NCBI GenBank assembly: GCA_964017185.1
Contig: OZ024871.1
Coordinates: forward strand, 31,922,488-31,986,487
Direction of reading: 5' to 3'
DNA: 64,000 bases
Origin: Rugalucina vietnamica
Taxonomy: Eukaryota; Mollusca; Bivalvia; Lucinida; Lucinidae
How positions within the stretch are numbered: the first letter of the stretch is position 1; each line of letters starts with the position of its first letter. The notes beneath the pieces were generated by a model. It saw only the letters and a list, made by a program, of their open reading frames with translations. It ran no database searches and was not told the DNA's origin. Position numbers and translations under genes: made by a program. This document shows positions 1 through 41,673 of the stretch, in pieces.

Positions 1-714
1 GATCTATAGGTTTCAATATTGGAATAAAACCAGAGATATTAGAATACACACATTAAGACACTGATATGAACATTTCTTTTTCGCATCGGCTTTTTCAATG
101 AAGATTTTCCACAGTCAGGGCTCATATGATCTTTTATTTATTGCCTCTTTTCGATAAAAGCAAAATATTGCCTCTAAATCCAGACACAATGTTATGAAAA
201 GGACTGATATTATAGTCTGAATGGTTTAAACCATAAAGTGAAAAAGCCAGTAAAATATTATGCCACTTATGAATCAAATTAAAATCTAGAATGATATATA
301 AAAGCTTACCGAAACAACAGAAAACGGAAATCAATCAGCTGTGGTAAGACTTACTTTAGCTAGAGGCTTTTTGATAAAAATATGATTTTGAAAACACATA
401 CAGATGTTCAAACATAATCTGAAACAAAAAAGCGACTGCACACAAAATTATTATGGCTCAATTTATGAAAACTAATTATTAGAAATTGAGGTTGAACTTC
501 TATCTCTTACAGGATGGATTTACAGCATAACAGTGGACTACTTACACGTAATAGCATTTCCGGACTGTGTGGAATGTGAGCCGTCGGAGGAGTTTTGTGG
601 AAGTCTTCGTGGATGTTTTTCATTTCATCAATGAAACTGAAGAACTATCCGAAGCCATTCAGTGATCATCAGTAAATCAAGCAAGTAAATCAACACAACA
701 AGTTCGACCAAGTA
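1..714. other. 5' flank of first gene
   Basis: No coding region is supported here. A splice-acceptor-like stretch (pyrimidine-rich, ending CTCTTACAG) lies at about 503-511, so the exon carrying the following reading frame may begin near 512 with a 5' UTR. A 22-codon frame opens at about 513 and closes before 580. I cannot tell a spliced leader exon from chance. Confidence 0.3.
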
Positions 715-1717: not shown

Positions 1718-3625
1718 AAGATAAGATAATTTTTATTTCAAAATTCCATAAGGCTAACAAGCCCATGAGGATATAATACATACATAGATATTTGATGGCA
1801 TACAGTACAGATACATGCAACTAAATCATATATTCAATCGACAACTTGTAACAATGCAACATTTACCATACACTACATATTAGTCATATTTGATGCGGCA
1901 CAAAAGACAACTAACGACTGGTTTGTGATGAAAATTGAGAAGTCGCGGAGAAGGTGTTTCTAAATAATCAAAAAAGCAACTTTATCAACACATCTGCAAT
2001 GGATATGTTCGTATGACGTTCACTTTTACAACACTCTTTAATATAATAAGTGAAAAAAGGAAACGTGCGCTTTTTCTCAGACCAATCATAGGTTATGTAG
2101 ATATATATAAATATACAACTGAATCTAATATTCCATGTAATGAACTATTGTAGCCATAATGCAATATCAAAATACATCTTTACCACATTCCCATATGAAA
2201 TTCTAACAAATATATTTTCTATTAAACACAGCAAAGAAACATATTTACAAAAAATTCTATATATATCATGCACATTTATTGGTCATTTATAACAAAATCA
2301 TTGTAAGAGAAAACAAATAAAAGGTATATGTACCACACTTATTCATTTCTATGATGCTTAGGTATGATCTACATTAATGATGTTACAGTTAACATTGTTC
2401 TGTCATTGAGAATAACATATTTTGACAGTAAAATATCAAATGGACTTTAACTGCAATACTAAATTGTCAGAAAACTGCATGTAGCAGGCATACTTATTAA
2501 TTATATAATACGTCAGAACGCAATTTGAAAACTTGATGTATAAATGATCCTAATTTTCTGATATAACGACGATTTTCTGAGTTAAGTAATTCTACAAATT
2601 TTGCCATACTTGGTCTTCTCCAATAATATTTAGGTATATATGTTTTACGTTAATCATTATATAATTGACATTCTAAAACAAAATGAAACTCATCTTCAAT
2701 GACGTTACAAACTGAACATTTTCTTTGTTCTATAGGTATTCGTATTGGTCGTACCCATCTCCCAGCTTCAATCTCTAAGCGATGTGAAGACATTCTTAGC
2801 TTACTAAATGCTTGACAAAATTTTTGTATATTTATAATTTCAAGATAAGGTTGAAATCTGAATAATGCTATCGACCTATAACAAAGTACTCGAGAGGAGT
2901 CTTCTAATCTTGAGAACCCGTTCTGTACAAAATTGCCAGTAAGCCTTTGTTTTAACACAGCCAAGAATGCATTAATATTTCCAACCCCTTGGTTTAACCA
3001 GACATTATTAAAACCCAAAGACCTTAAGAGATCACGTAAAAGAGACGCCCAATTTACTTTATTAGGAGACTGGTCGATATCATGTAACATTAAATTATAG
3101 ATAATATGAATATATTTATGGTCAGGTGACGCTAAAACTTTAAACCAGTATTTAACAATGTCAAAATATCTTTTAGTTATCAAGGTTGTCCTTCCCAATT
3201 CTCCATATACGAAATCATTTTGTGCGTTTTTCTTCACACCCAGAACTTTTTTACAAAACTGCAAGTGTACTCTTTCGATAACGTTTGCATGACTAAAACC
3301 CCAAACAGCAGAAGAATAATTCAAAATAGGAGTAATGAGTTTATCAAACAACTCTAACTTATGCTTAGGAGTAATGTATGTAAATTTGTATAAGTATTTA
3401 TTGAGTTCGAAAATTGCCTTTTGTGCTTGGCCTGCTAATGTCGTTTGCGCCTCTGAAAAAGAGCCACCTGGCGTAAATACAATACCTAAATACTTGAACT
3501 GACTTACAATTTCTAATGGAATTCCATTATAGGTAAATGCTAGATTTCCGGGAAGTACTCCCCCTTTACGGAATATCATAACTTTAGTTTTACTGACATT
3601 TATAGTTAATTTTCATTTTAAACAA
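1718..3625 (-). mobile_element. 5'-truncated LINE, minus strand
   Basis: A non-LTR retrotransposon tail about 1.9 kb long. Its 3' end is at the left (A/T-rich tail near 1718-1735). Its 5' truncation point is near 3615-3625, where coding similarity begins with INVSKTKV, the palm/thumb region after the reverse transcriptase core. The unoccupied target is visible at about 4130-4160, where the sequence on both sides of the LINE (AAGCAAACATAA and AAGGACAGATTC) runs together. Confidence 0.75.
2650..3613 (-). pseudogene. LINE ORF2 C-terminal fragment
   Basis: About 320 codons, 309 of them from the first ATG. It has the thumb motif FKYLGIVFTPGGSF, then ITPILNYSSAVWGF, YGELGRTTL and a terminal Cys/His cluster (CSVCNVIEDEFHFVLEC). 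This order is the usual C-terminus of CR1/Jockey-group LINE reverse transcriptases. The fingers and palm with the catalytic aspartates are missing, so it cannot encode an active enzyme. The same element type, cut at almost the same codon, occurs at 27.7 kb. Confidence 0.8.
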
Positions 3626-39946: not shown

Positions 39947-40023
39947 CAATAAATGACTGGGCAAAAATCTTGGACAAAAAGGGTCAGGTTGACACTTTCA
40001 TTTTGGACTTTGAAAAAAGCTTT
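39947..40023 (+). pseudogene. LINE-B ORF2, RT block ending at KxF
   Basis: Encodes INDWAKILDKKGQVDTFILD and FEKSF, the region leading to the first catalytic aspartate. The next residues of the block (DTPPHELL) lie after the hammerhead insert. Confidence 0.85.
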
Positions 40024-40397
40024 TAGGATCAAACCTTTATATTTTATTTTCATTACTGCAGCTGGCATTGTGTCGTGTGGCGGTCCTAAAAAGTCTCCCC
40101 GTAGATCATATCCATAGTGCAGATTATATTTTTCTTTCGGTCCTTTGAGATCAAAAAAGATATTCAGAGTGTTCAAAACACTTATGTTTAGAAACATACT
40201 TCTAAGCAATGTTTGTTTGACCCCGTTTAGGAATGTGCCTTTGATTTAGACTTCTCGTATAAATTGTCAAACTTGTAGTACAATAGTTCTGGCCTACTGA
40301 TGAGGGTTCATTACCCGAAATTGCGCAATATAGTCCATACTATCTCCTTTTGAATGTTTTTACTGCTTCCATAGGATCAAACCTTTATATTTTATTT
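40024..40397 (+). mobile_element. Hammerhead ribozyme element (retrozyme-like), 374 bp
   Basis: The insert sits between codons TTT (40021-40023) and GAC (40398-40400) of LINE-B. Removing exactly these 374 bp restores the frame and the conserved order KxF-DTPPHELL. Its first 26 bases (40024-40049, TAGGATCAAACCTTTATATT...) recur as its last 26 (40372-40397), so it is one 348-bp unit plus a 26-bp overlap. It has no protein frame of merit. It contains a complete hammerhead ribozyme motif at 40291-40336. A circular or tandem self-cleaving RNA copied slightly more than once around would give exactly this structure. Metazoan retrozymes and Penelope-like elements are known carriers of such ribozymes. 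Confidence 0.75.
40291..40336 (+). ncRNA. Hammerhead self-cleaving ribozyme (type I, short stem III)
   Basis: Stem I 5' strand GGCCTA (40291-40296); core CTGATGA (40297-40303); stem II GGGT/ACCC with loop TCATT (40304-40316); core GAAA (40317-40320); stem III from the palindrome ATTGCGCAAT (40320-40329); cleavage residue A40330; stem I 3' strand TAGTCC (40331-40336), pairing with one internal mismatch. All invariant residues are present and H17 = A is permitted. Predicted cleavage is between 40330 and 40331. The palindromic short stem III is the form that cleaves best as a dimer. Confidence 0.85.
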
Positions 40398-41026
40398 GAC
40401 ACACCTCCACACGAACTTCTTAAAAGCAAATCGTTTAGTAATGTTATAGGTGGAAAGACATTGGAATGGATAAATGCTTTTTTGTGCTTCAGGCAGCAAA
40501 TGGTAGTAGTTAATGGCGTTAAATCTGACTGGGCCTCTGTTGTGTCTGGTGTCCCACAGGGCACCGTTCTCGGTCCAGTGGTGTTCTCCTTGTACATAAA
40601 TGACATACCCGTTGGCATTGACTCTCAAATCAGGCTTTTTGCTGATGACTGTTTGTTACCGGGAAATTAAAACAGTAGAAGATACATTGAAACTTCAGAA
40701 AGACATTGACCTTTTATGGAGTTGGGCCTGAAAATGGGGCATTAGATTTCAACCTGTCAAATGCAACAAGATGCAGCTGACAAATAAACAGATAATCAAA
40801 ATTGAGGCCTCCTACACACCCGAGGGTACAGTATTGGAAAATGTTGATAGCATTAAATATCTAGGTGTAACACTTACAAATGACTTGAAGTGGAATACCC
40901 ATATCATCATATCTGTACTAAAGCCAACAGAACACTTGGATTCTTGAGGAGAAACTTATTTTCTTGCCCTCGAGCTGTTAAAGAAGCAGCTTATAAAGGA
41001 CTGGTGCGCCCTGTCCTGGAATATGT
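40398..41026 (+). pseudogene. LINE-B ORF2, RT palm and thumb
   Basis: DTPPHELLKSK, then SGVPQGTVLGPVVFSLYIND and the catalytic box FADDC, then CNKMQLTNKQ and IKYLGVTLTNDLKW. After a frameshift comes NRTLGFLRRNLFSCPRAVKE and LVRPVLEY. Catalytic motifs are intact, but stops (for example after LLPGN and in WSWA*KWG) kill the frame. This is the CR1/Jockey-like LINE RT common in bivalve genomes. Confidence 0.85.
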
Positions 41027-41367
41027 GTTTCCAAGTTTGCTTCACTCGTGCGTTCTATGGACTAATTTTTCCCCCATCCGAACCCCTGGTGAAATAATGC
41101 CATTTGGCGTGTCACCAGTAAACTATACATATTATGGGAGCCGCATCGTGAGAAAACCGGATTTTTGCCTATGCGAAAACAAAGGCGCAGATCAGCTTCG
41201 CAGTAACTGCGCAGCTGATCAGCGCCTTTGTTTTCACCACTCGGATAGTACAATTCCTCTTCCTCTTAAATCCGAAATTTCAAGCTGCTAGCCCTTGTCT
41301 GTAACTGTACAGGCCGATTTATGTCGGACCTGGTCGGAAACCCCGAAGACCGGTTTTCTCGCGTCGA
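41027..41367. mobile_element. MITE-like insertion with nested palindrome in LINE-B
   Basis: LINE codons break after LVRPVLEY and resume with SSV near 41369. Inverted motifs GTGAGAAAACCGG (41149) and CCGGTTTTCTCGCG (41351), and an inner 61-bp palindrome 41175-41235 (GAAAACAAAGGCGCAGATCA... mirrored). A relative of its right end occurs at about 53630-53680. Confidence 0.65.
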
Positions 41368-41673
41368 GGTTATTGGAAGTTCTGTATGACCTGTAAAGGC
41401 TTTCAGGAGGAATTGGAGAAGGTACAGAGTCGTGCCGCTAGATTGGTAACTAGGAATTATACTTTCGAGGAAGGAAGTATGACTGGCATTCTTGGACAAC
41501 TCAAATGGGAATGTCTCTTTCTTACTTACAGTCTTTACATGGTGCGCTTGGTTCAAAACTCACCAATCATGACCGAAACGACCCGTAACAATGCGAACGG
41601 CGCACAAGTGACAGCGAAAATAATAGAGCGTGCCATAAAAAGTAAACAACGATTTTCATACGAATTACTGTGC
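41368..41673 (+). pseudogene. LINE-B ORF2, C-terminus
   Basis: FQEELEKVQSRAARLVTRNY, then GSMTGILGQLKWECL and the terminal IIERAIKSKQRFSYELLC with a stop at 41674-41676. End of the LINE-B coding region. Confidence 0.8.

Follow-up and report, generated by a model that had tools for sequence, protein, structure and literature searches.

The window analyzed here, a 64,000-nt stretch of contig OZ024871.1 of the bivalve Rugalucina vietnamica, contains a LINE fragment with a decayed reverse transcriptase part that is interrupted by a short non-coding insert (Table 1). Judged by its sequence, the insert matches a kind of element that is already known, the non-autonomous, non-coding retrozymes published from animals as non-LTR retrozymes. 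On either side of it, window positions 39949–40024 align to positions 2943–3017 of another LINE copy (L113), and positions 40395–41025 align to 3015–3618. L113 carries RVT_1 and Exo_endo_phos_2 domains, with RVT_1 in its reverse transcriptase frame, a frame that resembles LINE-1 ORF2 chains in the PDB by sequence match. The host LINE has 1,581 candidate places in the genome. At the insertion point its copies read GCTTTTGACACC, uninterrupted in all nine that we fetched (two long and seven short, of 39 other places among the matches listed). The empty site proposed in an earlier note on this DNA is thus borne out, and the LINE is ruled out as a natural carrier of the insert sequence, since none of the nine copies has it at that place. 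Within the LINE region, positions 41140–41370 form a MITE-like stretch with inverted CCGG-type ends, as read by eye.

The earlier note had placed a 374-bp insert at 40024–40397, with 26-base identical ends 348 bp apart. Both the insertion and the repeat are real; however, the repeat begins with a T that is part of the target, which leaves a true overlap of 25 nt, and the LINE copies set the limits at 40025–40397 (373 bp). The final TTT of the insert (40395–40397) is common to insert and target. The insert exceeds one unit because the 25-nt overlap is present at both ends; it amounts to 1.07 units of the window copy's own 348-nt unit. Removal of 374 bp had also seemed to mend the reading frame exactly. 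This repair is only apparent, because the upstream A-run of the window copy has one additional A relative to the LINE copies.

Table 1. Features of the retrozyme locus, in window coordinates.
Feature	Position	Strand	Basis and remarks
Host LINE fragment, decayed reverse transcriptase part	39949..41025	+	Collinear alignment to L113
Retrozyme insert	40025-40397 (373 bp)	+	Empty LINE site; alignment to family unit
Left copy of 25-nt overlap	40025..40049	+	Direct repeat; start set by LINE copies
Conserved stretch, family phase 36-105	40083..40154	+	62/70 vs L027; candidate recognition site, putative role
Hammerhead motif, type I layout	40291..40336	+	Sequence, descriptor match, stem rules; Rfam below threshold
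Stem I	40291-40296 with 40331-40336	+	One mismatch, at fourth pair
Core CTGATGA	40297-40303	+	
Stem II GGGTTCATTACCC	40304-40316	+	
Core GAAA	40317-40320	+	
Stem III ATTGCGCAAT	40320-40329	+	
Predicted self-cleavage	between 40330 and 40331	+	Hammerhead rule; family phase 308/309
Right copy of 25-nt overlap	40373..40397	+	Direct repeat
Fixed 3' end of copies, presumed reverse transcription start	40396..40397	+	Core-selected arrays

The insert carries a putative type I hammerhead with an intact core and three stems. Its parts follow the order CTGATGA, stem II, GAAA, stem III, then U-A, the cleavage point and stem I; we assigned the stem layout and the cleavage position by the general hammerhead rules. 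The core, the three stems and the cleavable TA had been read from the DNA before, and that layout is indeed present, with a mismatch in stem I. A descriptor, hand-written after the element was seen, found one site in the window (at 40297) and none in 200 first-order random windows. A stricter earlier version, which called for at least four pairs in stem I, missed the window copy because of the mismatch at the fourth pair. Covariance models gave no such match: no Rfam family reached its gathering score in the window or in seven relatives (best hammerhead score 14.4 bits, E 5.7), and a consensus-like copy stayed below threshold at 18.4 bits (E 1.5). Of the three outcomes that the earlier note had named as refuting, this is the one that did occur, and it counts against its reading. 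We give it less weight because a second family, represented by L027, keeps the core and changes its stems with pairing kept. Within the core, aligned copies vary most at N7 (T 120, C 22), the one core position that the hammerhead rules leave free. When 33 units were folded as circles, the consensus retained stem II pairs in 26 to 29 of 30 sequences and stem III pairs in 26 to 29 of 31; stem I was absent both from this fold and from the circular fold of lowest energy for the unit. The hammerhead can be imposed on the consensus circle at a cost of about 4 kcal/mol, and shuffled versions of the window unit fold as well as the unit itself (z 0.17). The second family, described below, provides stronger evidence.

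The insert belongs to a large repeat family. Across the genome (1.09 Gb, 47 contigs), the hammerhead core pattern with up to three mismatches has 9,603 matches, units inside arrays included, and the reversed pattern has none; other copies of the unit, which the reading of the earlier note called for, are therefore plentiful. The 3'-terminal 31-mer of the family occurs 6,930 times. No match to the core was found in viral contigs. The majority unit built from 33 genomic units is about 374 nt long, so the 348-nt unit first described holds for the window copy but not for the family. The window copy, identical to the family unit at 348 of 370 aligned bases, is a deletion variant with a stem I extension shortened by 22 nt and with some minor further losses, and its deletion junction was found in no other fetched locus. 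Many members form head-to-tail arrays of up to 6.2 units, and the 1.07 units of the window copy are one length among many from 0.2 to 6.2. With a GC content of 0.382, and with longest ATG frames of 36 aa in the circular consensus and 61 aa in the window unit, the family has the tandem repeats of 150–450 bp, the GC below 50% and the lack of coding capacity (as the earlier note had it) by which non-LTR retrozymes are defined. A frame for reverse transcriptase and GIY-YIG, which marks autonomous Penelope-like elements, is absent, as no frame in the window unit or the consensus exceeds 61 aa.

Nearly all of the family copies sampled end at one fixed point on their 3' side. This point is family phase 374 (window position 40396), 66 nt 3' of the predicted cleavage site. 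One sample was selected by the hammerhead core alone and consists of the first 30 places in the list for contig C1, which make up 25 distinct arrays (one of them, L071, joined by hand from two collinear pieces). The distance of the array end from phase 374 is at most 13 nt in all 25, at most 8 nt in 24 and at most 2 nt in 18. These arrays are 0.2 to 3.6 units long, and 16 of the 25 are shorter than one unit. In a first sample, comprising the best 40 of 4,296 candidates and biased since its query ended at the suspected site, the end is at most 9 nt from this phase in 38 of the 42 long pieces and at most 2 nt from it in 31. Of the other four pieces, those in L033 and L040 are interrupted, resume, and then end at phase 374 and 9 nt beyond it, and those in L024 and L039 stop at phase 156–157. 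A third sample of 40 places was picked by the 3' end, with listed tandem neighbors excluded, and serves for 5' ends only. Junction counts started from 133 aligned pieces, from which we removed 8 cut by the end of the locus and 20 ending more than 12 nt from phase 374 (interrupted arrays and fragments of the second family among them); 9 of the remaining 105 had no readable terminal motif, which left 96. Duplicate loci (L054, L061, L062, L068 and L069) and two loci replaced by larger fetches (L005 and L008) were excluded.

The 5' ends are scattered across the whole unit. Of the 96, 7 fall at phases 305–309, and several short copies begin near phase 297–309. A genome-wide pattern test revealed no sharp spike of 5' ends at the exact cleavage point, the counts being 41 places in the vicinity of phase 309 and 30 at control phase 289; the places that kept 0, 1, 2, 3 or 4 upstream consensus bases numbered 12, 6, 4, 9 and 10 near phase 309, against 10, 6, 4, 0 and 10 at the control. 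After scaling, 5' ends near the ribozyme are about twice as frequent as at this one control. We reject run-off at a hammerhead-made 5' end as the usual copy end, there being no sharp spike; the counts leave room for the twofold scaled excess. Note that in L014, L015 and L050 retrozyme pieces are joined, at several phases, to a repeat whose end reads TTGTACCTT. In L014 and L015 this repeat sits between two retrozyme pieces, so that a few of the 5' ends are interruptions and not true ends.

Target duplications exceed the level of shuffled pairings in 2 of the 96 insertions (15 and 17 bp), both of which are longer than the 4 bp that retrozyme duplications surpass when present. None was detectable above shuffled pairings in the other 94. 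The base directly after the fixed end is a pyrimidine in 82% of cases, and CA follows in 20 of 96. Our literature searches, which covered few subscription journals, listed no title on a fixed copy end in animal retrozymes; the pattern of copy ends, fixed at 3' and scattered at 5', is the new part of our findings. The fixed 3' end had gone unnoticed in the earlier note. Two retrozyme groups (L082, L084 and L104; L085 and L102) have common 3' flanks at the junction, and are either copied composites or one repeat site that was reused.

Each young array was seeded by one monomer, because the units of the youngest arrays are nearly identical to each other, yet differ by 2 to 6% from the consensus. 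The units of L067 differ by 0.6% and lie 6.2% from the consensus; the corresponding values are 0.6% and 5.6% for L009, and 0.0% and 5.0% for L016. We compared units within the 39 arrays whose overlap is at least 80 nt. In 38 of them, the rate of shared variants exceeds the mean between arrays, 0.0092 per site. The units lie nearer to one another than to the consensus in 20 of the 39, and in 13 at less than half that distance; in the remaining 19, they have drifted apart as far as, or beyond, their distance to the consensus. Arrays differ from one another by 0.093 on average. Copies longer than 66 nt needed an RNA with an intact junction, either a circle or an uncut multimer, since on a linear cut monomer the enzyme would run off after 66 nt. 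The within-array comparison favors the circle as template, and the fixed 3' end together with the near-identical units points to one RNA circle having been reverse transcribed from a single internal position. One-monomer arrays are thus evidence of this process at the level of DNA. The earlier proposal of a retrozyme-like insert, derived from a circular or concatemeric self-cleaving RNA and placed into a LINE, is supported by the thousands of members, the tandem arrays, the empty site and the near-identical units.

A second hammerhead family lies in the flanks of L027, L060 and L064, with a unit of about 357 nt (from L027) and with a hammerhead of its own in L027 and L060. Relative to the first family, L027 differs in CTGANGA at N7 only, has an identical GAAA, and shows at least one two-sided change in every stem with pairing kept, in our reading of the alignment. 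Stems I and II of L060 contain mismatches, and stem III of the second L027 unit contains one, as expected for decayed copies. L027 ends at the homologous ATT, and L064 and L060 end at or near it. Between L027 and the first family, 62 of 70 positions are identical (89%) over phase 36–105, against about half over 106–268 and 9 of 34 over 315–348. This conserved stretch lies 36–105 nt beyond the fixed end, just 3' of the presumed start on the circle. Since it lies beyond the copy end, any effect that it has requires an RNA template that continues past that end, and this fits a recognition site for an enzyme. We therefore regard phase 36–105 as a candidate recognition site for the mobilizing enzyme.

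SINEs mobilized by LINEs are short and non-coding, with a fixed 3' end and 5' truncation. The retrozyme resembles them in all of these respects, but has multi-unit copies made from one monomer, a hammerhead, rare target duplications and a start inside the unit. With plant LTR retrozymes it has in common its non-autonomous nature and a hammerhead, and theirs also form circular RNA (PMC7229834); the LTRs, primer-binding site (PBS), polypurine tract (PPT), type III hammerhead and 4-bp duplications of the plant elements were not seen here. The metazoan non-LTR retrozymes are closer. Like them, our family has a type I hammerhead in non-coding tandem repeats of low GC without LTRs, and a retrozyme of Mytilus galloprovincialis has a size of 350–390 bp and about 5,000 copies (Cervera and de la Peña 2020, PMC7229834). 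Short or palindromic helix III is known from amphibian non-LTR retrozymes (PMC7229834). In contrast to the copies analyzed here, those in the available part of that paper are described as tandem repeats, with the mobilizer left open and with no mention of a fixed 3' end, of 5' ends that scatter or of a conserved stretch past the end. What our analysis adds concerns the mechanism, namely a single start point, a template that is probably one circle, a stop at random, and, in the same genome, a Penelope-like family whose copies have a similar ending.

Candidates for such a family came from GIY-YIG frames, of which 150 of 451 candidates were scored matches, some of them in tandem with a 3,893-bp period. 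One tandem array (C15:425918–437860) includes L122, a 1.5-kb piece (C15:428350–429850) with a predicted minimal hammerhead of palindromic stem III, 364 nt upstream of an ATG. Rfam does not list this hammerhead. We class the family as putatively Penelope-like from the GIY-YIG in a long frame, the tandem copies and the hammerhead in the repeat. Pfam gave nothing useful on frame pieces of L122 and L124, and the loci of two other GIY-YIG families that were probed for hammerheads (L123 and L124) lie in open frames. To locate copy ends in the L122 family, we counted 25-mers across the genome with up to two mismatches, by position from the cleavage site. Copy number drops soon after the hammerhead, from 166 places at +42..66 and 164 at +67..91 to 13 at +163..187 and 14 at +458..482, so that about nine tenths of the copies end in the bracket between +92 and +162. 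The L122 family does not have the same end as the retrozyme, since its copies do not stop at +66, nor is it a partner that shares sequence, as it has no similarity to the retrozyme. A genome-wide search for an abundant element with the last 18 nt of the retrozyme behind other upstream sequence returned 59 places and no large group, with a pattern that would pass only about four in ten partners by our estimate. The largest group with one upstream sequence consists of five copies of one truncated retrozyme end at about 17.4-kb spacing (C18:5895–75399), perhaps part of a large tandem repeat.

The closest parallel for such an end is PAc, a Penelope-like element of Anolis. As described in PMC11167929, its reverse transcription begins inside the RNA, 111–118 nt into the frame, and its hammerhead cut is at +26, which by our arithmetic puts the start 85–92 nt past the cut. 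RNA beyond the start is important as well, since the element needs the first 172 nt of its frame; insertion persisted in ribozyme mutants, and in vitro unprocessed RNA served as the principal substrate (PMC11167929). PAc and the retrozyme are thus alike in an internal start shortly past the hammerhead and in the RNA beyond that start, as well as in a minimal hammerhead, tandem copies and an AT-rich target (PMC11167929). They differ in that the retrozyme has no notable frame (36 aa in the circular consensus), and in the position of the start (+66 nt against 85–92 nt).

The explanation that we prefer, and consider probable as a whole, begins with transcripts of older copies, which the hammerhead would cleave and which would then close to form circles of about 374 nt, as published for relatives. 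A reverse transcriptase would bind the circle at the conserved stretch and start synthesis at a single set position inside it, 66 nt 3' of the cleavage site, presumably primed by nicked target DNA. It would then run around the circle and stop at a random point. With a fixed start and a random stop, the inserts would measure 0.2 to 6 units and would all share one 3' end while their 5' ends scatter. The enzyme most likely comes from a Penelope-like element with a GIY-YIG nuclease. The fixed 3' end, the scattered 5' ends, the single monomer per array and the empty LINE site are shown by the data, as is the drop in Penelope-like copy number soon after the L122 hammerhead; we infer the circle, how copying is primed, that the stretch is bound, and the identity of the enzyme. 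Several observations weigh against it. No partner with the same sequence was found in the genome, the L122 end is bracketed, and Rfam scores are below threshold, L122 included. Stem I is missing from the lowest-energy circular fold, and an uncut multimer could replace the circle. Finally, 5' ends show the roughly twofold scaled excess near the ribozyme, and in PAc, where ribozyme mutants kept the ability to insert, the RNA mainly used in vitro was unprocessed (PMC11167929).

It is an open possibility, a little short of an even chance, that animal retrozymes in general parasitize Penelope-like elements, with a landing stretch 36–105 nt past the fixed start that lets the enzyme copy the circle repeatedly into a nicked site. 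If so, the hammerhead would make the circle and the landing stretch would secure mobilization, a stretch retained in two families despite their different ribozyme stems and bodies. With a fixed 3' end at +66, a conserved stretch and a Penelope-like family of similar ending, the open question of the mobilizer becomes directly testable.

The same circle and fixed start could also serve an APE-type non-LTR LINE enzyme that recognizes the 3' region in the fashion of SINEs. LINEs are abundant, with 1,581 candidate places for the host LINE, 5' truncation with a fixed 3' end is LINE-like too, and two copies carry the 15- and 17-bp duplications. We nevertheless find this unlikely, because the host LINE (the family compared) ends in an ATTCTG-like repeat unlike the retrozyme end, because target duplications rise above the shuffled level in so few insertions, and because the start is internal to the unit and is followed by conserved sequence, as in PAc (PMC11167929). 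Somewhat less likely again is a template consisting of the uncut multimeric transcript of a young homogeneous array, with initiation and enzyme as in our preferred explanation. DNA cannot directly separate circle from multimer, and PAc uses unprocessed RNA in vitro (PMC11167929); however, near-identical units set against a distance of 0.093 between arrays mean that each source array must itself be young, and relatives make abundant circles (PMC7229834).

Two further explanations dispense with the circle. A linear RNA polymerase III transcript that ends near the T-run (phase 368–371) and is copied from its 3' end, as in a SINE, would make the hammerhead incidental. An A-box–like site with one mismatch at phase 309 (window 40331–40341) and an exact B-box match at phase 353 (window 40375–40383) have the spacing of a tRNA and are equalled by 1.1% of shuffles, and several short copies start near phase 297–309. 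Yet copies extend past the T-run to ATT, ARAGORN found no tRNA in eight loci, and both the one-monomer multi-unit arrays and the conservation beyond the end are left unexplained, which makes this improbable. Ordinary satellite DNA, spread by unequal exchange and carrying a chance hammerhead, we consider the most improbable explanation. It would suit the tandem arrays and the sub-threshold Rfam models, but not dispersed single and partial units with one end fixed and the other scattered, nor the clean insertion into the LINE and the compensatory stem changes of the second family.
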